Assembly: GCF_007004095.1 (NCBI RefSeq)
Contig: NZ_VHJK01000001.1
Coordinates: 624,501-688,500 of the forward strand
Length of the DNA stretch: 64,000 nucleotides
Direction of reading: 5' to 3'
Source: Erythrobacter insulae
GTDB lineage: Bacteria > Pseudomonadota > Alphaproteobacteria > Sphingomonadales > Sphingomonadaceae
Positions 2,941 to 13,257 of this stretch are shown here, piece after piece. Numbering within the stretch: the first letter of the stretch is position 1; each line of letters starts with the position of its first letter. The notes below the pieces were generated by a model. The model made no database searches. It worked only from the letters and a program-made list of their open reading frames with translations, and had not been told where the DNA came from. Made by a program: the position numbers and the translations under genes.

Positions 2941-3222
2941 TACTTGGCAACAGCTGCCGAAATCTCAGCGAAACCCGCAGAAATCCTCGCATCCCAGACA
3001 CCGGAGTTCCGGGTACGGTGTGCCCTCCAATTTCCCGTACTCCCCCACGTGACCAGACATTTCGACGGTTTGTTCTGAAGGGCTTTTCCAGCCAATTCCA
3101 AAAGGATTTCCGCGCCCGCGCGGCAAAGTAGCGAACGGAAGTGAGGCCAAGCCCAAGCACGGCAAAAGGCCGCGCTGGATCGTGCCAGCGAGGCCTTTAG
3201 GAGTGTCAGATTACGGTTGCGA

Positions 3223-3576
3223 TCAGGCGGCCTCTGCCACCCCTCCTTCCTTCGCCCTCGCAAGGAAATCGACCTTTTCTGCGATGATCTCGCATCCGTA
3301 GCGAGTTTGCCCATCGGCGTCGGTCCAGCGGCTATAGTGGATGCGGCCCGTCACCATGATCATGGCGCCCTTCGTGACGTTCTCGGCGACGCTTTTCCCG
3401 ATGCCGTTGAAACAGGTGACCCGGTGCCATTCGGTCTCAGTCTGGCGGTTGCCTTCGCTGTCCTTGAAGCTCCGCGTGGTGGCGAGCGATAGGCTGGTTA
3501 TCGTGGCGCTACCGGAAGTTTCGCGGACTTCAGGAGTGTTGCCGACAAAGCCGACCAGGATGACGGTGTTCTTCAT
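3223..3576 (-). CDS. ssb: Single-stranded DNA-binding protein, plasmid type
   Basis: The 117-residue product is a compact OB-fold SSB: MKNTVILVGFVGNTPEVR at the start, then TEWHRVTCFNGIGKSVAENVTKG, then GRIHYSRWTD and an IIAEKVDFL strand. It lacks the long glycine-rich tail and acidic tip of the chromosomal protein. Short SSBs like this are typical of conjugative plasmids and integrative elements, where they protect transferred single strands. The start at ATG 3576 is supported by AAAGGAC just upstream; an in-frame extension to 3843 has no SSB-like sequence. Its position next to mobilisation remnants supports an element-borne copy. Confidence 0.9.
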   Translation of the reverse strand: MKNTVILVGFVGNTPEVRETSGSATITSLSLATTRSFKDSEGNRQTETEWHRVTCFNGIGKSVAENVTKGAMIMVTGRIHYSRWTDADGQTRYGCEIIAEKVDFLARAKEGGVAEAA

Positions 3577-3929
3577 TGTTCGTGTCCTTTCGAGGCATTC
3601 GATCCGTCCAAGGGACAATCCCTTTGACTGAGCCCCATTGAGGCCGGGCGCGGGCAGGACTGCACCGAGCGTATGTGAGGGAAACCTCGCCCAACGGAGT
3701 GGTGCGGGCAGCCGCGCGAAGCGTGGCAACACGGTCCGAATAGGCGCGGGTTGCAGCGCCTGCCCGGGTTCGGTCAGGGGCGTGCTCAGGTCATGAAAAG
3801 GGAATGGTTCTTGCAATACGGAAGAACTCTGGAAGCCGAACACGAGGCAGCGCCTCCACTACCTGTTTCCCTCCGGCAAATCCCTGTCCTGTCTTGTGAA
3901 TCTGCCGCTTGTCGGCCAAGTATCGCGCC
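3577..3929. other. Divergent intergenic region, no gene seen
   Basis: This stretch lies between the ssb start and the methyltransferase start. Short open frames are present on both strands but none has a ribosome-binding site plus recognisable protein. It must contain the promoter for ssb and probably that of the defence-like operon. No clear -35/-10 pair stood out. Confidence 0.4.
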
Positions 3930-6686
3930 ATGAATGCAGTCGAAATCGAAGAAGCAATTTCAGAACTGGCCGCCCAGCCATTTGACAGGGCCGAGTTTCC
4001 ATTCGCGTTTCTCGAAGCGTTCGGGCGCAAGGCGAACACGCTGAAGCAATTGCGGGCCGGGACAACCAATGCCTCGGACCTTCCCGGCGGTGTCCTCCAG
4101 CGCAACAATATCCATATCGCCACTTGCGATCCGGGCACGGTCGACGAGACGCTCAAGGCCCTGCGTGAAAGCCCCAAAACGGGCGCAGCAAAAGCCAAGT
4201 TCATCCTCGCCACGGACGGCACCGACTTGCAGGCGGAGGATCTGGTCAACGGCGAATCCGTCGCCTGCACTTACAGCGATTTCCCGAACCACTTCGGCGC
4301 GTTCCTGCCGCTCGCTGGCATCACCACCGTCAAGCAAATCCGCGAGAACAGCTTCGACATCCGCGCCACCAGTAAGCTCAACAAGCTCTATGTCGAGCTG
4401 CTGAAAGAGAACCCCGACTGGGCCACGGCGGAGCGCCGGCCCGACATGAACCACTTCATGGCGCGGCTGATCTTCTGCTTCTTTGCGGAGGATACCGATA
4501 TCTTCAACGGAGAGGGCCTGTTTACCTCCACGGTGGAGCGGTTCAGCGACCGGGAAAGCTCCAACACGCACGAGATCATCTCAAACATCTTCCGCGCGAT
4601 GGACACCTCCACGCGGCACGAAGGCAGGCTGGACGATCGCTATCGCAAGGCGGCGAACATCCCTCCCCACGCGGACGCCTTCCCCTATGTCAACGGCGCG
4701 CTGTTTTCAGGCAGTGTCGAGGTGCCGTGCTTCAGCCGTATGGCGCGCAGCTATCTGCTGCATATCGGCGGGCTGAACTGGAAACAGATCAACCCCGATA
4801 TCTTCGGCAGCATGATCCAGGCGGTCGCCGATGACGAGGAGCGCGGTGCGCTCGGCATGCACTACACCAGCGTGCCGAACATCCTGAAGGTGCTGAACCC
4901 GCTGTTTCTGGACGATCTCCGCCACCAGTTGGAAGAGGCGGGAGACAACGCCCGCAAACTGCTAAATCTGCGGACCCGGATGGAGAAGATCAGGGTGTTC
5001 GATCCGGCCTGCGGATCGGGCAATTTCCTCGTCATCGCTTACAAGCAGATGCGCGAAATTGAGGCCGAGATAAACAAGCGGCGCGGAGAGAGCGAGCGCG
5101 ACAGCGACATCCCGCTCACCAACTTTCGCGGGATCGAACTGCGCGACTTCCCGGCAGAGATCGCGCGTCTCGCGCTGATCATCGCTGAGTTCCAGTGCGA
5201 CGTGCTCTATCGTGGCCAGAAGGAAGCGCTCGCAGACTTCCTGCCGCTCGATAGCCAGAATTGGATCACTTGCGGGAATGCGCTGCAAACGGATTGGCTG
5301 GGGATTTGTCAACCAACCGGTAATGGCGTCAAGGTTCGTGGAGATGACTTGTTCAATACACCTTTGGACCAAGTCGAGATAGACTTCGAGAATGAAGGTG
5401 GTGAAACCTACATATGTGGTAATCCGCCATATACGGGAAGCAAGAAATCCGAGCAAAGAGAGAAAGAGGACCTATCGCATGTCTTTGCGGGCGTTCTGAA
5501 GAAATACAAAACTCTCGATATGGTTGCAGCTTGGATTTGGAAGTCTCTCGATCTCTTGAAGCACGGAAGTGGGGGAGCCGCTTTTGTAGCTACGAAATCA
5601 ATTTGCCAAGGCGAACAAGCTGCTCAGTTTTGGCTGCCATTTTTTAAGCGCGAAGGTCGAATCTATTTCGCCCACCGTCCATTCCAATGGGCCAATTTGG
5701 CAAGTCGAAATGCTGGCGTTACGTGCATAATTGTGGGCGTGACTACCAGCCGATCAACAAATTGCTACCTTTACGAAGGTGATGAGCGTCGCGAGGTGTC
5801 CCAGATCGGTCCCTATCTGATCGATATGCCACCTATGGCAGTTTCGAAATCCACCCGTCCGTTGCACAAATTGGGACCAATGAGCTTTGGCGACCATCCC
5901 TATTATGCTGGCGAGCTTATTGTTGAAAGAGGCGAGGCTGCAACGCTTGAGGGCAATCCTGCCAGTCGGTTCCTTCTTCCGTTATTTGGCACGACCGAAC
6001 TCACCAATGGTAGGCCGCGTTTTTGCTTCTGGATTTCAGATGATCAGGCGAAGGATGCATACAAGGAAGAGTTTCTGGTCGATCGGTTTGAGCGAATTGC
6101 CGAGGTTCGTTCTTCCAAGACAAAGGACGTCGCTGCACTAAAGCTAGCGAAACAACCATTCCGTTTTAGAGACCAAGCGACTGGTCGAAGTCGTCTGGCT
6201 GTGTTCGCAAGGCATTCATCCGAAAACCGAGAATATCTTCCTTTCGACGTTTTCAGCTTCCGTGTCGTAGTTTCAGATGCGGCATTTTTCAGCCCGAATG
6301 CCTCTCCAGAGATGCTTTCAGTTTATGCCTCGAGACTTCATACCATTTGGATAGCAACAGTTTGTGGACGTATCCGGTCGGACTATCGATATTCCAACAC
6401 CCTCGGCTGGAACACTTTCCCCGTCCCCAAACTGACCGAACAACACAAAGCCGACCTGACTCGCTGCGCCGAGGACATCCTCCTCGCCCGCGAGGCACAT
6501 TTCCCCAAGACCATCGCCGAGCTCTACGATCCGGAGAAGATGCCCGAAAACCTCCGCCACGCGCACGATCGCAACGACGAGGTGCTGGAACGCATCTACA
6601 TCGGCCGCCGCTTCAAAAACGACACCGAACGCCTCGAAAAACTGTTCGAACTCTACACCAAAATGACCAGCACAAAGGCGGCGTAG
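3930..6686 (+). CDS. MmeI-like class I DNA adenine methyltransferase
   Basis: This 918-residue protein should methylate adenine in DNA and carry its own target-recognition domain. The SAM-binding motif I (FDPACGSGNFL) is at about residue 357 and the catalytic NPPY motif at about residue 498. The N-terminal 170 residues and the helical segment NHFMARLIFCFFAEDTDIF around residue 175 match the N-terminal and spacer regions of MmeI-type proteins. I do not see a convincing D-x(n)-ExK nuclease motif at the N-terminus, so cleavage may be supplied by another gene here. I chose ATG 3930 over an upstream TTG at 3909. Bases about 5290-6400, covering the part after NPPY, are AT-richer than the ends of the gene, which suggests an exchanged recognition domain. 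It heads the co-directional block that ends at 12929. The methylated sequence cannot be predicted. Confidence 0.9.
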   Translation: MNAVEIEEAISELAAQPFDRAEFPFAFLEAFGRKANTLKQLRAGTTNASDLPGGVLQRNNIHIATCDPGTVDETLKALRESPKTGAAKAKFILATDGTDLQAEDLVNGESVACTYSDFPNHFGAFLPLAGITTVKQIRENSFDIRATSKLNKLYVELLKENPDWATAERRPDMNHFMARLIFCFFAEDTDIFNGEGLFTSTVERFSDRESSNTHEIISNIFRAMDTSTRHEGRLDDRYRKAANIPPHADAFPYVNGALFSGSVEVPCFSRMARSYLLHIGGLNWKQINPDIFGSMIQAVADDEERGALGMHYTSVPNILKVLNPLFLDDLRHQLEEAGDNARKLLNLRTRMEKIRVFDPACGSGNFLVIAYKQMREIEAEINKRRGESERDSDIPLTNFRGIELRDFPAEIARLALIIAEFQCDVLYRGQKEALADFLPLDSQNWITCGNALQTDWLGICQPTGNGVKVRGDDLFNTPLDQVEIDFENEGGETYICGNPPYTGSKKSEQREKEDLSHVFAGVLKKYKTLDMVAAWIWKSLDLLKHGSGGAAFVATKSICQGEQAAQFWLPFFKREGRIYFAHRPFQWANLASRNAGVTCIIVGVTTSRSTNCYLYEGDERREVSQIGPYLIDMPPMAVSKSTRPLHKLGPMSFGDHPYYAGELIVERGEAATLEGNPASRFLLPLFGTTELTNGRPRFCFWISDDQAKDAYKEEFLVDRFERIAEVRSSKTKDVAALKLAKQPFRFRDQATGRSRLAVFARHSSENREYLPFDVFSFRVVVSDAAFFSPNASPEMLSVYASRLHTIWIATVCGRIRSDYRYSNTLGWNTFPVPKLTEQHKADLTRCAEDILLAREAHFPKTIAELYDPEKMPENLRHAHDRNDEVLERIYIGRRFKNDTERLEKLFELYTKMTSTKAA

Positions 6687-6707
6687 GATTATGCGCAGGA
6701 TTGTCAC

Positions 6708-7691
6708 ATGAGCCAGATTATGGCTCCCATCGACGCGATAATGCGCGAGCCGCCGAACGTCTGGCTCACGAGCTTCTATGGCTTCGATCCCGGCAATTGG
6801 GGTTTTCTAGGCTTCAGCACCGACAGCCAGAGACGCAGTTTCATCCGTCGTAGTGAGCCGGGTGCATTGGTCGTAATCTACGCGGTGGGCAATGCGCCAT
6901 CGGACATGCTTGGCCGGGTTGTGGGTGTGCTGCAATGTTCCCACCGCGTGAACCACGCACAAGCCTTCATGTCACCGATGGCGTGGGAGGCGAAAAAGAA
7001 CGATCCGGATCGCGAGGATCGCTGGGATCTTGGTGTGAAGGCCATTCGAGCTTGGCGCGTCGCAGCCGACGCCCGCCCTTTGATCGCAGATTTTGCAAAC
7101 GAAACCTATTCCGCTGGCAGGGCACAAACGATCGGATCGCAGGGCATGCCTCTAACCAGCGAAGAGGCGCGAAAGTTGCTCGACCTTGATCTTCAGGAGG
7201 TCTCCGTCTTTGGCGAAATTCCTGTCGACGATGCCCGCTTGGCAAAGGGTTCGGACTTGTTCGGCGTCAACAAGGCAGGGCCGGTATCGCAAAACCCGCA
7301 TATGGTACGTGAAGCTGAGGGGCCTAAGAGCCTTTATCAGCTGAAGCTTGATGGCGATATGAGCGCCTTTCTTGGCGAAGATGCTGGCGATGACATAGTC
7401 GTTAAGGTCGGGATGTCTGGCAGTCCACCGACGCGCTGCGAAGACCACAATCGCGCCTTGCCGAATGGAGCCTTCAGATGGCGCTTGCTCAGGTCGAATG
7501 AGACTGCAGGCGAGCCACATTTCCCGAATTCACGGATCGCCATTGAAGGCGAAAACGGAATGAAAAAGCTTCTGACCAAGAATGGCAAATGGCTTGGTGG
7601 TGAATTCTTCCGCGCAAGCGGTGATTTGGTCGATGAAGCGTGGGCGGTTGGGATGCGCGACGCAAAACGGTGGGCTGACCTATCCAGCTAG
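6708..7691 (+). CDS. EVE/PUA-like N-terminus fused to a GIY-YIG-like C-terminus
   Basis: The 327-residue product starts 21 bp after the methyltransferase stop, with AGGA at a suitable distance. Residues about 18-120 (VWLTSFYGFDPGNWGFLGF, then GALVVIYAVG and GRVVGVLQ) look like a short PUA/EVE-type beta barrel, a fold known in other proteins to read modified bases. Residues about 208-300 show a GIY-YIG/T5orf172-like order: SLYQLKL, then VVKVGMSGSPPTR with Arg243, then a glutamate-containing helix near 280 and GGEFFR. Neither part is a strong match by eye and the middle is unassigned. If right, it may recognise methylated or otherwise modified DNA made by the upstream enzyme, or nick invading DNA. 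The base composition is somewhat AT-richer than that of the helicase gene. Confidence 0.6.
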   Translation: MSQIMAPIDAIMREPPNVWLTSFYGFDPGNWGFLGFSTDSQRRSFIRRSEPGALVVIYAVGNAPSDMLGRVVGVLQCSHRVNHAQAFMSPMAWEAKKNDPDREDRWDLGVKAIRAWRVAADARPLIADFANETYSAGRAQTIGSQGMPLTSEEARKLLDLDLQEVSVFGEIPVDDARLAKGSDLFGVNKAGPVSQNPHMVREAEGPKSLYQLKLDGDMSAFLGEDAGDDIVVKVGMSGSPPTRCEDHNRALPNGAFRWRLLRSNETAGEPHFPNSRIAIEGENGMKKLLTKNGKWLGGEFFRASGDLVDEAWAVGMRDAKRWADLSS

Positions 7692-7719
7692 GTTCGCAGT
7701 GATCCGCCCCATCATATGA

Positions 7720-7761
7720 TTGACTTTTAGGTCCAATGGTCCCTATATCTCATTTGAGATA
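7720..7761 (+). promoter_or_regulatory. Promoter and autoregulatory palindrome of the toxin-antitoxin pair
   Basis: TTGACT at 7720-7725 and TATATC at 7744-7749 form a sigma-70-like promoter with an 18-bp spacer. A palindrome, TATCTCA at 7746-7752 and TGAGATA at 7755-7761, covers the -10 box. RelB-type antitoxins repress their own promoters through such palindromes, so this is the likely operator. AGGAG follows at 7763-7767. It would also give the downstream helicase and GIY-YIG genes a promoter of their own. Confidence 0.65.
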
Positions 7762-7772
7762 CAGGAGATGGT

Positions 7773-8084
7773 ATGAACGCCCATAGCTCAATGATTCATG
7801 TCCGGATGGACAATGATCTGAAAGACCGCGCGACCGAGGCGCTGGCGGCGATGGGTCTGTCGACCGCCGATGCCGTGCGCCTGCTGTTCCACCGCATCGC
7901 CACCGACCAGGCCTTCCCGCTAGAGCTCAAGGTTCCCAATGCGGAAACCCGCGCGGCGATGGAAGAGGCGGATGAATTCTTCAAGAATGGCGCCGCGCCC
8001 CGCTTCGACAATGCTGACGATATGTTCGCCGAGCTCGAGGAAGAGAGCAAAGCCTTGCGCGAGGCCGGAAAACAGAAGTCTTGA
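7773..8084 (+). CDS. relB: RelB/DinJ-family antitoxin
   Basis: This 103-residue protein begins with the ribbon-helix-helix pattern of RelB/DinJ antitoxins: IHVRMDNDLKDRATEALAAMGLS, then TADAVRLLFHRIATDQAFP. It should dimerise, bind the palindrome at its promoter and neutralise the YafQ-type toxin through its C-terminal half. The start is ATG 7773, with AGGAG six bases upstream. The last codons overlap the toxin start. The pair sits inside the methyltransferase-helicase block, not at its edge, so loss of the block would release the toxin. Confidence 0.9.
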   Translation: MNAHSSMIHVRMDNDLKDRATEALAAMGLSTADAVRLLFHRIATDQAFPLELKVPNAETRAAMEEADEFFKNGAAPRFDNADDMFAELEEESKALREAGKQKS

Positions 8085-8407
8085 AAAAAGCGGCTGCGAG
8101 CAAGCGCACCGCGCTGCCCCGGACGATTGGCTATGCGAAGTCGTTCCTGAAAGACTTCGAGCGGCTGTCGCGTTCGGGCCGATACGATATGAAAAAGCTC
8201 AAACAGGTGATGCTACTGCTCATCGCCAATGACGCGCCGCTCGGCCCCGAATGGAAAGACCACGCACTCAAGGGCGAATGGCAGGGGCACCGGGAATGTC
8301 ATGTCGGTGGCGATTTCCTGCTGATCTACCGCGTAGAAGACATTCCGGCACCCGGCGGCGGCATTTTCTTCACCCGCGCCGGAACACACAGTGAGCTTTT
8401 CAAATGA
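8081..8407 (+). CDS. yafQ: YafQ-family mRNA interferase toxin (RelE superfamily)
   Basis: The 108-residue product carries the YafQ signature: a basic N-terminus, SFLKDFERL, then WKDHALKGEWQGHRECHVGGDFLLIYR and a terminal THSELF. The histidines in KDH, HRECH and THS correspond to the catalytic histidines of YafQ, so it should be an active ribosome-dependent ribonuclease. The start is a TTG at 8081, overlapping the antitoxin stop by four bases, which fits coupled translation. Its own stop overlaps the helicase ATG by four bases, linking toxin expression to the helicase. Confidence 0.88.
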   Translation: MKKAAASKRTALPRTIGYAKSFLKDFERLSRSGRYDMKKLKQVMLLLIANDAPLGPEWKDHALKGEWQGHRECHVGGDFLLIYRVEDIPAPGGGIFFTRAGTHSELFK

Positions 8408-10467
8408 GCGCCAAGGATCAGATCATTCCCGCCGTATCGTTCACGACTGCCCAGACCGGCGCGTCGGCCAAGTCGGACGAACTGGGCATGCGCCCGATGC
8501 AGGCGCAAGCTTATGAGAAGCGCGGCGAGCAATATCTGCTGATCAAGTCCCCGCCCGCCTCAGGCAAATCGCGTGCGCTCATGTTCATCGCGCTCGACAA
8601 GCTGGCGAACCAAAATGTCCGGCAAGCCATCATCTGCGTGCCCGAACGCTCGATCGGCGCAAGCTTTAACACCGAACCACTGAGCAAGTACGGTTTTTTC
8701 ACCGACTGGAACGTCGCCCCGCAATGGAACCTGTGCAACACGCCGGGTGCCGATGATCCCAAGGTCGCGAAGTCCAAAGTGAAAGCGGTCGGCGAGTTCC
8801 TTGCGAGCGATGAAAAGGTGCTCGTCTGCACTCATGCAACGTTTCGCTTCGCCTTCGACGAGCTCGGACCGGAAGCGTTCGATAACCGTCTGGTCGCAAT
8901 CGACGAATTCCACCACGTCTCCGCCGATGCCGGCAACCGTCTCGGCGCGCAGCTCGCGCAGTTGATCGGGCGCGACAAGGCGCATGTTGTGGCGATGACG
9001 GGTAGCTATTTCCGTGGCGATGCCATTCCTGTGCTTGCGCCGGAAGACGAAGCCAAGTTCGAGACGGTTACCTACACCTACTACCAGCAGCTCAATGGAT
9101 ACGAGTATCTGAAGACGCTCGATATCGGCTACAGCTTCTACACCGGGCCTTACACCGAGAAGATTTCGGCGCTGCTCGATCCGACGGTGAAGACCATCGT
9201 CCACATCCCATCGGTCAATTCGCGCGAGAGCCTGAAGGACAAGCATCGCGAGGCCGAGGACATCATGAACCACCTCGGCGACTGGCAGGGCATTGATCCC
9301 GAGACAGGGTTCCACCTTATCAAGACGGCTGCCGGAAACGTTATCAAGGTGGCCGACCTCGTCGACGACGATTCCGCCAAGCGCGACCGCGTCGCCGCAG
9401 CCCTGAAATCACCCGATGCGCGATCGGATCGCGACTTTGTCGACATCATCATCGCGCTGGGGATGGCGAAGGAAGGCTTCGACTGGATCTGGTGCGAACA
9501 CGCGTTGACGGTCGGCTATCGCTCCAGCCTAACTGAAATCATCCAGATCATTGGCCGGGCAACCCGAGATGCGCCGGGTAAGACCCGCGCTCGCTTTACC
9601 AATCTGATCGCCGAACCAGCGGCGGACAGCCCGCTCGTAGTCGACGCGATCAACGATTACCTCAAGGCGATTGCGGCGAGCTTGCTCATGGAGCAAGTGC
9701 TCGCGCCCCGCTTCGACTTCACGCCAAAGGACGCAGGGCCGAAACCGGACTTCGACTACGGGCCGGGTGGATACAAGGAAGGTGAGACGAATTTTGGCGT
9801 GAACGATCACGGCCAGATGCATTTCGAGATCAAGGGTCTCAAACTGCCAAAGAGCGTCGAGGCGACGCGTATCTGCCGTGAGGATCTCAACGAGGTCATT
9901 GCGACCTTTGTGCAGGACAAGGCAGTCGTCGAACGCGGCGTATTCGATCCCGACGTTGTTCCAGAAGAGCTAACCCAGCTCAAGATGGGCAAGATCATTC
10001 GGGAAAAGTACCCCGAATTGAGCGAACACGATCAGGAAGCGGTCCGCCAACAGGCGGTTGCTGCGATGACTTTGACCCAGCAAGCCAAGGCTGTGCTGAC
10101 AAGCGATGGTGATGGCGAAATCAAGGCAAATACCGCCTTCATCGAAGGTGTGCGCAGGTTCGCGCTCAGCGTAACGGAGCTCGACATCGATCTCATCGAC
10201 CGGGTCAATCCGTTCGAGGCAACGATTGCGGTCTTGGCCAAGTCCATGGATGCAAAGACCCTGTTGCAGGTTCAGGCGGTCATCAACGCAAAGAAGGACA
10301 AGCTGACCTACGAAGATGCGCGCGCACTTGCCGAGCGAGCGCTGGAATTCAAGCGGGAGCGCGGACGGCTGCCATCGCTGACTTCTCAAGATGCGTGGGA
10401 ACGCAAGATGGCCGAGGGCATCGCTTTCCTCCAACGCCACGCCACCAAAGAGGCCAGCAATGGCTGA
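8404..10467 (+). CDS. DEAD/DEAH-box (SF2) helicase of a restriction-like system
   Basis: The 687-residue protein is a superfamily 2 helicase-like ATPase. Walker A is PASGKSR (GKS at residues 54-56), motif II is DEFH (167-170), motif III is MTGS (about 198-201), motif V is GMAKEGFDW (353-361) and motif VI is QIIGRATRD (381-389). The C-terminal 280 residues after the helicase core are unassigned and may hold a DNA- or partner-binding region. It resembles helicase subunits of type III or type I-like restriction systems and has no nuclease motif that I can see. The ATG at 8404 overlaps the toxin stop; the end overlaps the next gene by eight bases. It probably works with the GIY-YIG protein that follows. 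Confidence 0.85.
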   Translation: MSAKDQIIPAVSFTTAQTGASAKSDELGMRPMQAQAYEKRGEQYLLIKSPPASGKSRALMFIALDKLANQNVRQAIICVPERSIGASFNTEPLSKYGFFTDWNVAPQWNLCNTPGADDPKVAKSKVKAVGEFLASDEKVLVCTHATFRFAFDELGPEAFDNRLVAIDEFHHVSADAGNRLGAQLAQLIGRDKAHVVAMTGSYFRGDAIPVLAPEDEAKFETVTYTYYQQLNGYEYLKTLDIGYSFYTGPYTEKISALLDPTVKTIVHIPSVNSRESLKDKHREAEDIMNHLGDWQGIDPETGFHLIKTAAGNVIKVADLVDDDSAKRDRVAAALKSPDARSDRDFVDIIIALGMAKEGFDWIWCEHALTVGYRSSLTEIIQIIGRATRDAPGKTRARFTNLIAEPAADSPLVVDAINDYLKAIAASLLMEQVLAPRFDFTPKDAGPKPDFDYGPGGYKEGETNFGVNDHGQMHFEIKGLKLPKSVEATRICREDLNEVIATFVQDKAVVERGVFDPDVVPEELTQLKMGKIIREKYPELSEHDQEAVRQQAVAAMTLTQQAKAVLTSDGDGEIKANTAFIEGVRRFALSVTELDIDLIDRVNPFEATIAVLAKSMDAKTLLQVQAVINAKKDKLTYEDARALAERALEFKRERGRLPSLTSQDAWERKMAEGIAFLQRHATKEASNG

Positions 10468-11659
10468 ATTGAGTGACCTCGAACTGCTGGCCGAGCTTGG
10501 TGTCGAAACAGCACCCGAGCCGGTTCGAAAGCTGACCCCCCTTCAAGAACGCATTATAGCGGGATTCGAGGACATACAGCGTTTCGTCAAAGAGCATGGA
10601 CGCCTCCCCAGGCATGGGGAGGATCATGACATTTTTGAGCGACTCTATGCTGTCCGTCTTGAGAGGCTTCGCGCTCTTCCCGAAGCGCAAGAACTCTTGG
10701 CGAGCATGGACCCGGACGGCATTCTGGATGCAGCCGAGCCGTTAGGGAAACCATCGGACGAACTAGACGACACTGCACTTCTGGCAGAACTTGGCATCCA
10801 ACCGGGGTCGGAAGATGATATTACAAAGCTGCGGCATGTGAGTTCTCGGGCCGAGAAGAGAGCCGCTGAAGAAATCGCCAACCGTGAGAGGTGCGAGGAT
10901 TTCGAAGAGTTCAAGCCGCTGTTCGAGGCGGTGCAGGTCGATCTGAAGGCCGGTAGCAGACAGGCCAAGGCGCTCGGCAATTCTGAGGTCACGCTGGCCG
11001 AAATCCAGCCAGGGAATTTCTTCATCGTCGGCGGGCAACTCGCATACATCGCCGCCTCGACCGACGCCTTCACGACTCAGTATGAGCGGGCTGATCGCCG
11101 TGTCCGAGTCATATACGACAACGCAACCGAGGCGACGGTCCTTTCACGCTCATTCCAGAAGTCGCTCTATCGGGACGAGTCCGCTAGGCGCGTGAGCGAG
11201 CAAAACGCAGGACCGCTTTTTGGAGACACCGCTGAGCCCGACGATCTGGAGAGCGGCACGATCTATGTACTCCGTAGCAAATCGTCGCATCCCTATGTCG
11301 ACGAGCATCGCGAGCTGATCCATAAGATCGGCGTTACAGGGCAGCCGGTCCTCAGCCGGATTGCCAACGCGCGTAACGATCCGACTTTCCTGCTCGCGGA
11401 TGTCGAAGTCGTGGCCGAGTACAAGCTCTTCAACATCAATCGAACCAAGCTCGAACGGCTGATCCATCGTGCGCTCGGGCCTGCCCGCCTTGATCTTTCT
11501 GCAGGCGATCGATTTGGCAAAACTGTCCAGCCGCGCGAGTGGTTCCTTGTCCCGCTTTCGATCATCAACGAATTGGTGGCGCGGATCAGTGACGGTACTG
11601 TCACGCAGCACGTATACGATCCCGCAAGGGCGGAGTTCGTTGCCCAAGATGACGTCTGA
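10460..11659 (+). CDS. GIY-YIG nuclease-like protein (T5orf172/MUG113 type)
   Basis: This 399-residue protein has a C-terminal GIY-YIG-type domain: TIYVLRS at residues 267-273, HKIGVTG at 288-294, Arg300, KLERLIHRAL with Glu332, and REWFLVP at 359-365. The tyrosine of the second motif is replaced by lysine (KIG), as in T5orf172 members, whose nuclease activity is not always established. The N-terminal half holds two similar short segments, DLELLAELG at 6-14 and DTALLAELG at 104-112, and then charged helices. The start at 10460 lies within the helicase 3' end; an upstream in-frame start at 10391 is less likely. It is the best candidate nuclease of this block. Confidence 0.8.
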   Translation: MAELSDLELLAELGVETAPEPVRKLTPLQERIIAGFEDIQRFVKEHGRLPRHGEDHDIFERLYAVRLERLRALPEAQELLASMDPDGILDAAEPLGKPSDELDDTALLAELGIQPGSEDDITKLRHVSSRAEKRAAEEIANRERCEDFEEFKPLFEAVQVDLKAGSRQAKALGNSEVTLAEIQPGNFFIVGGQLAYIAASTDAFTTQYERADRRVRVIYDNATEATVLSRSFQKSLYRDESARRVSEQNAGPLFGDTAEPDDLESGTIYVLRSKSSHPYVDEHRELIHKIGVTGQPVLSRIANARNDPTFLLADVEVVAEYKLFNINRTKLERLIHRALGPARLDLSAGDRFGKTVQPREWFLVPLSIINELVARISDGTVTQHVYDPARAEFVAQDDV

Positions 11660-11693
11660 CTTGCAGTTGGACGCAATCAGGCGAAGTTAGCTC

Positions 11694-12929
11694 ATGGCAC
11701 GTCAGTTCACCCGCTCCGAGTTCTATGAGCTCGTCTGGTCCAAGCCAATGACGCACTTGGCAAAGGAATTCGGTCTTTCTGACGTCGCCTTGCACAAGAT
11801 TTGCCGCAAGCACGATGTACCCAACCCTCCGCTTGGATGGTGGGCAAAACATGCAGCGGGCCAAAGGGTCAAACGAACACCGCTACCCAGGCTGAAGTCG
11901 GGCATTTCCGACACGATCAACATCGCTGGCGGAGAGCTCCGCAACGAACCCGATTCCGTCGCGCAAATCCGCGAAGAGGCCCGCGTTCGGGCCTCGGCGT
12001 TCGATCCCAAAAAGGTCGATCAGGAACATTCCATCGTAACGCGATCGATGGCCAAGTTGCGCAAGGCAAAGCCTGACGAACGGGGATTGGTGAGGCTCGC
12101 TCAGTCCGCCTTGATCGACGCGGAATTAGCGCCGGATTCAATTGATCGGATCGAACTATCGCTCAACCGAATAGTCACGGCAGCACAGGTCCAAGGCTTT
12201 GAACTCAGCGGCAAGGCTGAACGCGCCGCGTTCACGGACGGAAACGTGATTGTCCCCTTCAGTCTAAAGGAAGCAGTTAAGCGATCGCAGCACGAGCCCA
12301 CGCCCGAGGAATTGGCGAAGGAAGAGAAGGAACGAAAACGGCGAGAGCGGCGCTGGGCACGGGACGATTGGGATTACGTCCCGAGCTTTTCCTCATTTAG
12401 CCATTGGCCAGAATGGGATTATGCACCGACCGGCAAGGTATCGTTCGAGTTCGACCTCTATCTCCGATACTCGTCATCTCTCCGCCGCTCCTTCAAGGAT
12501 GCCAAGATCCAGCGCCTGGAAAACATGGCGAACGATATCGCAGTGGGTCTTGCCGTACTGGCTTCTGCGAAGCGCGAGGATGACAGGCGAGCCGAGGAAG
12601 ACCGCATCCGTGCGGAAGAAGAAGCGCGTCGGCGCAACGAGGCTAGACGGCTAGCCTATATCGAAGACCGGCGCCTCAAGGTGCTCGATCTCGTGTTCGA
12701 GCGGGTCGAGAAACGCGACCGCCTGCGCCGCCTAGCCACACAACTAACTGAGGAACTCAAAGCCACGTCCTCGCCGCGTTCCACCGAGTTTCTTGACTGG
12801 CTCAATGCAATTGTCGAGCGAGCCGAGCGCGCTTCAAGTGTCGAAGGATTCGAGGTGTTGTTCGAGGCTCAACACGTGTTTGGACCAGACGATGATAAGG
12901 GCTTTTACCCTTCGCGCTATGGCTGGTAA
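11694..12929 (+). CDS. Helix-turn-helix plus coiled-coil protein of unknown function
   Basis: The 411-residue product starts with a segment that looks like a helix-turn-helix: FYELVWSKPMTHLAKEF then GLSDVALHKICRKHDV at about residues 10-45, followed by PNPPLGWWAKHAAG. Two long, highly charged helical stretches follow at about 205-225 and 290-355, probably coiled coils. I recognise this architecture from alphaproteobacterial genomic islands but know no assigned function. It starts 34 bp after the GIY-YIG gene in the same direction, so it may belong to the same transcription unit as a regulator or sensor. It is the last gene before the island border. Confidence 0.7.
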   Translation: MARQFTRSEFYELVWSKPMTHLAKEFGLSDVALHKICRKHDVPNPPLGWWAKHAAGQRVKRTPLPRLKSGISDTINIAGGELRNEPDSVAQIREEARVRASAFDPKKVDQEHSIVTRSMAKLRKAKPDERGLVRLAQSALIDAELAPDSIDRIELSLNRIVTAAQVQGFELSGKAERAAFTDGNVIVPFSLKEAVKRSQHEPTPEELAKEEKERKRRERRWARDDWDYVPSFSSFSHWPEWDYAPTGKVSFEFDLYLRYSSSLRRSFKDAKIQRLENMANDIAVGLAVLASAKREDDRRAEEDRIRAEEEARRRNEARRLAYIEDRRLKVLDLVFERVEKRDRLRRLATQLTEELKATSSPRSTEFLDWLNAIVERAERASSVEGFEVLFEAQHVFGPDDDKGFYPSRYGW

Positions 12930-13257
12930 CCAACATCAAGCCACATGTGACGCGGCTGATAGCCAGCCCCCACGATCTCAGGATGTCCGCTTGCATCCAC
13001 TCAAAAGTGTGGGTCTGAGTGTGGGTCTGGTGAACTCTGAAATCTCCATATCGATCTGATATCAAATCGTTATTTCAGATATAGGTCGGACTCCGCCTCC
13101 GCCACCTTTTCAATACAGAAACCTATCATTAGCCGCTCAGCTGCACTGGCGGAGCGGTGAAATCTTATTGGTGGTTTTTCGAATAGATCACCAAGTGCTG
13201 CGCCTTTTGGCGCCCAGTGGCAATCATCCTCAAAGCGACCGGCCATTCGGCCAAGGC
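12930..13257. other. Putative attachment-site region at the island's right border
   Basis: No gene is seen here. In order there are the 11-bp direct repeats, an imperfect inverted repeat (ATCTGATAT at 13054-13062 and ATTTCAGAT at 13072-13080) and the sequence 13083-13106, GGTCGGACTCCGCCTCCGCCACC-like, which resembles the T-arm and acceptor end of a tRNA or tmRNA gene. Beyond it the chromosomal catabolic genes begin. This is the layout of an att site of an integrated element, but neither the integrase nor the other att copy is in the window. A GCGCC-TTTT-GGCGC hairpin lies near 13200-13213. Confidence 0.4.
13007..13029. repeat. Tandem 11-bp direct repeat near island end
   Basis: GTGTGGGTCTG occurs at 13007-13017 and again at 13019-13029, one base apart. 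Closely spaced direct repeats near an attachment core are typical arm-type binding sites of tyrosine integrases. The repeat sits between the last island gene and a tRNA/tmRNA-like tail. Confidence 0.5.

Follow-up and report, generated by a model that had tools for sequence, protein, structure and literature searches.

An EVE-GIY-YIG fusion protein inside a DnmA-YeeB-YeeC operon of Erythrobacter insulae, a candidate modification-dependent endonuclease

A gene of Erythrobacter insulae that joins a putative modified-base reader to a putative nuclease, and that stands beside a DNA methylase gene, raises the question of whether its product senses the mark made by its neighbour or acts on its own. 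The window, that is, the whole stretch of DNA analysed, comprises 64,000 nt (NZ_VHJK01000001.1, positions 624,501-688,500, forward strand). The open reading frame at 6708..7691 (+ strand) is present and encodes a protein of 327 aa, referred to below as EVE-GIY, which consists of an EVE-type (PUA-like) domain and a T5orf172/MUG113-type GIY-YIG domain. The EVE half (6756..7202, +) covers residues ~17-165 and carries conserved P28, Y58, W106, R114 and W116; the GIY-YIG half (7317..7688, +) covers residues 204-327 with Y210, K233-V-G235, R243, E282 and E299-F-F301. The sequence-only reading of this DNA had named both domains, at residues ~18-120 and ~208-300, and had suggested that the fusion senses DNA modification, with a hint that the mark is that of the adjacent methylase. 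The two-domain call was confirmed by the Pfam scores of homologues, by profile matches in the PDB and by AlphaFold/Foldseek comparison, and its boundaries agreed with the Pfam, profile and structure matches; sensing of the neighbour's mark was not supported, as described below. We consider it probable, from sequence, structural models and analogy with known enzymes, that EVE-GIY is an autonomous type IV-like (modification-dependent) endonuclease, an accessory that complements an operon attacking unmarked DNA.

Relatives of the protein, full-length or nearly so and ~26-95% identical, were found at 15 loci outside the E. insulae genome. When the window protein itself was compared with Pfam, neither half reached the curated cut-off: the only weak match was to EVE (PF01878; 14 bits, cut-off 23; E=0.052), and no T5orf172 or MUG113 profile match rose above its cut-off. 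The fusion call was settled because homologues do reach these cut-offs, and one of them (L017; 30% identical, E 3e-33) passed those for EVE, T5orf172 and MUG113 in one chain. EVE matches (E<=1) were obtained in 6 of 11 homologues, the best being that of L017 at 24.4 bits, above the cut-off of 23, and the T5orf172 and MUG113 cut-offs (20 and 22.3) were passed in L017 and L018 with best scores of 33.8 and 37.9 bits, respectively. A PDB sequence search with the single window protein gave no match; an 11-member family profile had as its two best PDB matches the GIY-YIG protein 1ywl (residues 238-298, E=0.015) and the EVE protein PH1033 (1wmm; residues 39-89, E=0.059), each in the expected half. 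No match to the single protein was detected in phage records or IMG/VR, and a profile search of viral contigs returned one, L044. PHROGs, NCBIfam and PADLOC contained no family covering EVE-GIY.

An AlphaFold model of the whole protein (5 sequences, pLDDT 75.8) was compared by Foldseek with 350,542 PDB chains. Ranks 1-3 were occupied by 1wmm, 6n0s (the EVE-like N-domain of McrB) and 2eve, with probabilities of 0.91, 0.89 and 0.21 and TM scores by target of 0.40-0.52, so that the model points to a PUA-like EVE fold, though the E-values are weak (0.03-0.33). Comparison of the model with a viral model library gave many T5orf172 models at probability 1.00. The C-terminal domain modelled alone (pLDDT 93.9) showed the strand-strand-helix-strand-helix order of a GIY-YIG-like domain, and a GIY-YIG fold is predicted despite the fact that no GIY-YIG entry stood among the PDB matches listed by Foldseek for this domain. 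At another locus (L039:6603-8339), where a Vsr gene lies close by, the GIY half of the family was fused behind an N-terminus resembling DUF3427; the EVE and GIY halves therefore recombine independently.

Within the EVE half, the conserved P28, Y58, W106 and W116 are candidates for a hydrophobic pocket that would hold a flipped modified base. Within the GIY-YIG half, Y210, K233, G235, R243 and E282 were present in 18/18 homologues aligned over the region. Of the residues earlier proposed as critical, Arg243 and Glu282 are thus conserved and Glu280 is not. Tyr210, Arg243 and Glu282 are accordingly named here as candidate catalytic residues, with the proviso that the second motif reads KVG, the YIG tyrosine being replaced by lysine. 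The alignment of homologues also revealed no conserved Asn of the I-TevI kind. Cleavage by the fusion is not assured, because KVG lacks the YIG tyrosine and T5orf172 is often described as DNA-binding; in PMC9973331 it is called mostly uncharacterised, with DNA binding as its predicted role. These features would fit a GIY-YIG half that is catalytically dead or only binds DNA, in a protein serving the operon as regulator or targeting adaptor. We regard this as unlikely, since the three candidate residues, whose loss one would expect in a dead domain, are retained down to ~26% identity. A separate arrangement bears on the same point: in L014 the space between the methylase and helicase genes holds a 144-aa protein of unknown kind, a separate EVE-only protein and then a PLDc-like nuclease protein, which suggests that the reader requires a nuclease as its partner.

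The gene preceding the fusion, which had been read earlier as a methylase, encodes by Pfam an MmeI-type DNA methyltransferase (dnmA/yeeA-like; 3909..6686, +; 925 aa, likely true start 3930; MmeI_Mtase 1.3e-106, TRD 1.3e-60, N 2e-33). Its domains are MmeI_N, helical, MTase (DPACG, NPPY), TRD and C, and it matched MmeI in the PDB (5hr4, 5e-117) from residue 97 onwards. DPACG and NPPY were retained in an alignment of 21 homologues, and inspection of the window DnmA and 20 aligned relatives showed no N-terminal D...E-x-K nuclease motif, so that DnmA would not be a nuclease-active MmeI (type IIL) enzyme. Further along the same strand lie a yeeB-like superfamily 2 helicase gene (DEAD/ResIII; 8404..10467, +; Pfam DEAD 1.5e-7, ResIII 2e-4), whose product shares ~66-69% identity with the best homologues on plasmids (YeeB is the annotation of one of these), and a yeeC-like gene (10460..11659, +; reading frame open from 10391, likely start 10460) with a C-terminal T5orf172/GIY-YIG domain (MUG113 1e-12, T5orf172 1e-12). 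YeeC is the second GIY-YIG protein of the locus and was absent from the earlier reading. With a methylase devoid of the nuclease motif, an SF2 helicase and a T5orf172 protein in this order on one strand, the locus is a DnmA(YeeA)-YeeB-YeeC system, a point that the earlier reading had missed as well. The gap between dnmA and yeeB has a second occupant, a RelB-like antitoxin gene (7773..8084, +; Pfam RelB 1.3e-15) with a YafQ-like toxin gene (8081..8407, +; Pfam YafQ_toxin 5e-28), and this pair is confined to the window and L002 (Croceicoccus gelatinilyticus). A profile-profile comparison of the GIY half with the C-terminal domain of YeeC gave no significant match (E 0.036, probability 1.4), and EVE-GIY is therefore no recent copy of YeeC. 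To the left of dnmA, TrwC relaxase remnants in two frames and an SSB gene (554-2457 and 3226-3843, both on the minus strand) are the relic of a conjugative element.

The three core genes stand in the same order as in Bacillus subtilis, where the cluster likewise comprises a methylase without the nuclease motif, a helicase and a T5orf172 protein (PMC7261158, PMC9973331). There, dnmA-yeeB-yeeC carries no insert, whereas here EVE-GIY and RelB/YafQ lie between dnmA and yeeB. The B. subtilis DnmA makes GACG-m6A-G and was noted to be without the nuclease motif of MmeI, and the tests performed revealed no restriction (PMC7261158, PMC9973331); the B. subtilis system has been described as a relic of dead restriction whose methylase is an orphan. 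Homologues in Vibrio crassostreae affect phage sensitivity, and an uncharacterised family has been remarked on as a possible further member of the locus (PMC9973331).

Could EVE-GIY be a working part of this system, its EVE domain reading the m6A made by DnmA, or the absence of it, and licensing or blocking cleavage? Its position speaks for such a role. EVE-GIY occupies the gap between dnmA and yeeB in six Sphingomonadales loci (the window, L002, L003, L004, L015 and L016); it overlaps dnmA by 4 bases in L003, L004, L015 and L016 and also overlaps yeeB in L003, L015 and L016, and the arrangement is therefore operon-like. The DnmA homologues, moreover, have no nuclease motif of their own. Against it, a GIY-YIG nuclease is already supplied by YeeC, and EVE-GIY is missing from most DnmA-YeeB-YeeC loci, being found in 0 of the 14 class-sample loci other than the window; it is therefore a minority occupant of the gap. 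Conversely, most EVE-GIY homologues occur without DnmA/YeeB. Among 10 other genomes with a homologue, YeeB was absent in 8 and an MmeI-type methylase, the only methylase type searched for, in 5, and EVE-GIY is therefore independent of the DnmA operon elsewhere. Some of its relatives adjoin genes of other restriction-modification (R-M) systems: in L040 an EcoRII-type system that includes Vsr, in L044 type I HsdM/HsdS, in L013 an HsdS gene and in L037, beside a relative matching in the EVE half only, a type I system. A Gabija-like OLD/UvrD pair is the neighbour in L020, and no obvious R-M neighbour was seen at L017, L018, L019, L034 or L035. The homologues in L017 and L018 directly adjoin guaA (GMP synthase, by inspection), a known site of island integration.

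A further contrast between the fusion and the methylase came from the closest pair of loci. Comparison of the window with L002 by blastn gave two blocks, 3010-5432 (90.6%) and 6415-13109 (95.4%), with nothing between them. The replaced part of dnmA (5433..6414, +; ~residues 509-835) encodes the late MTase and the target-recognition domain; DnmA protein identity is 4-52% there and elsewhere mostly ~90-100%. A swap of this kind inside a ~10-kb block (3010-13109) that is otherwise 90-95% identical reads, on sequence comparison, as a natural replacement of specificity. EVE-GIY remains 95% identical between the two loci while the recognition half of DnmA is unrelated. A reading of DnmA's mark is disfavoured by this swap, by the genomes without YeeB or an MmeI-type methylase and by the relatives that adjoin other R-M types or the Gabija-like pair, and these same observations leave the earlier hint that the adjacent methylase's mark is sensed without support. 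A sequence-independent m6A reader would be compatible with the exchange of the recognition half. We judge it improbable that EVE-GIY is a working part of DnmA-YeeB-YeeC, and the stricter idea of EVE-GIY as the obligatory nuclease of DnmA was rejected on the distribution and the recognition-domain swap.

An autonomous modification-dependent endonuclease thus stays our preferred reading of EVE-GIY. A modified base in DNA entering the cell would be flipped out and gripped by the EVE domain at the N terminus, while the GIY-YIG domain, tethered at the C-terminal end, would make the cut close by. Host DNA would be marked with m6A by DnmA, DNA lacking that mark would be attacked by YeeB and YeeC, and phages shielded from this attack by their modified bases would fall to EVE-GIY. 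The insert in the operon probably lets one locus act against both unmodified and modified phage DNA. Sensing of modification is a reasonable expectation from the EVE family. The data show the two domains, the conserved candidate catalytic residues, the operon-like position, the variable gap and the occurrence without DnmA/YeeB elsewhere; binding of modified bases, cleavage and the division of labour with the operon are predictions. As a likely type IV enzyme, EVE-GIY would close an escape route of modified-DNA phages, and it is a candidate tool for modified-base detection. The finding suggests that DnmA-YeeB-YeeC, widespread and poorly understood, is active in defence and serves as a platform on which accessory genes gather.

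Known enzymes offer close parallels. VcaM4I, an EVE-HNH modification-dependent endonuclease, flips 5mC/5hmC with pocket residues P24, W82 and Y130 (PMC7897488); like EVE-GIY, it has its EVE reader at the N terminus and, tethered to it, a nuclease domain at the C terminus, which is HNH there and GIY-YIG here. CMoRE, a GIY-YIG type IV enzyme, cuts 5hmC/5ghmC DNA (PMC12923530) and likewise combines a GIY-YIG nuclease and a modification-sensing domain in a single chain (sensing being predicted for EVE-GIY), but its domain order is reversed, and its sensing domain is not EVE and is without known homologues. EVE-GIY-YIG fusions are already a described class, placed by Bell et al. 2020 (PMC7641849) among predicted modification-dependent (type IV) restriction enzymes, with both domain superfamilies in one chain and the same predicted role as here; the main text of that paper mentions neither MmeI nor T5orf172, and no account of the embedding in DnmA-YeeB-YeeC or of the variable slot was found in it. 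The literature searched, mainly the main texts of openly accessible papers, likewise gave no description of EVE-GIY inside this operon or of a variable slot.

The PUA/EVE relatives include some RNA-binding proteins. The EVE domain might accordingly read modified RNA, in an RNA-directed abortive-infection or toxin-like nuclease, and the toxin-antitoxin pair adjoining EVE-GIY would suit such a role. This is very unlikely: RelB/YafQ is a separate insertion limited to two loci, at several loci the family adjoins DNA restriction systems, and the GIY-YIG enzymes characterised so far are, to our knowledge, DNA cutters.

The gap between dnmA and yeeB varied from locus to locus. Among the loci inspected that had not been selected for EVE-GIY, roughly half had no gene there (L047, L049, L070, L072, L074, L079, L080, L081 and L082). 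Elsewhere it held a PDDEXK_4 (PD-(D/E)XK) protein (L068), RhuM (L071), RhuM with YhcG/DUF1016 (L076), a Schlafen/AlbA_2 protein with an unknown (L046), toxin-antitoxin genes (L051) or unknowns (L050, L052, L075 and L078). Proteins of the RhuM, YhcG/DUF1016, AlbA_2 and PDDEXK_4 kinds, seen among the gap occupants of L045, L046, L068, L071 and L076, are frequent in type I R-M operons too. The gap might be reserved for exchangeable nucleases and effectors of a shared DnmA/YeeB targeting complex, with EVE-GIY a docked effector and no independent enzyme; we find this quite doubtful. On Thioclava plasmid p6 (L014:585-4954) the MTase and TRD are missing from dnmA without a break in the reading frame, and yeeB is truncated (464 aa). 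Chimeric remnants were observed within the gap at L004:10930-11166 and L076:2544-2771, where a yeeB start is joined to a dnmA end at nearly the same codon; they suggest that two tandem operons collapsed via deletion, a process that would stack slot cassettes.
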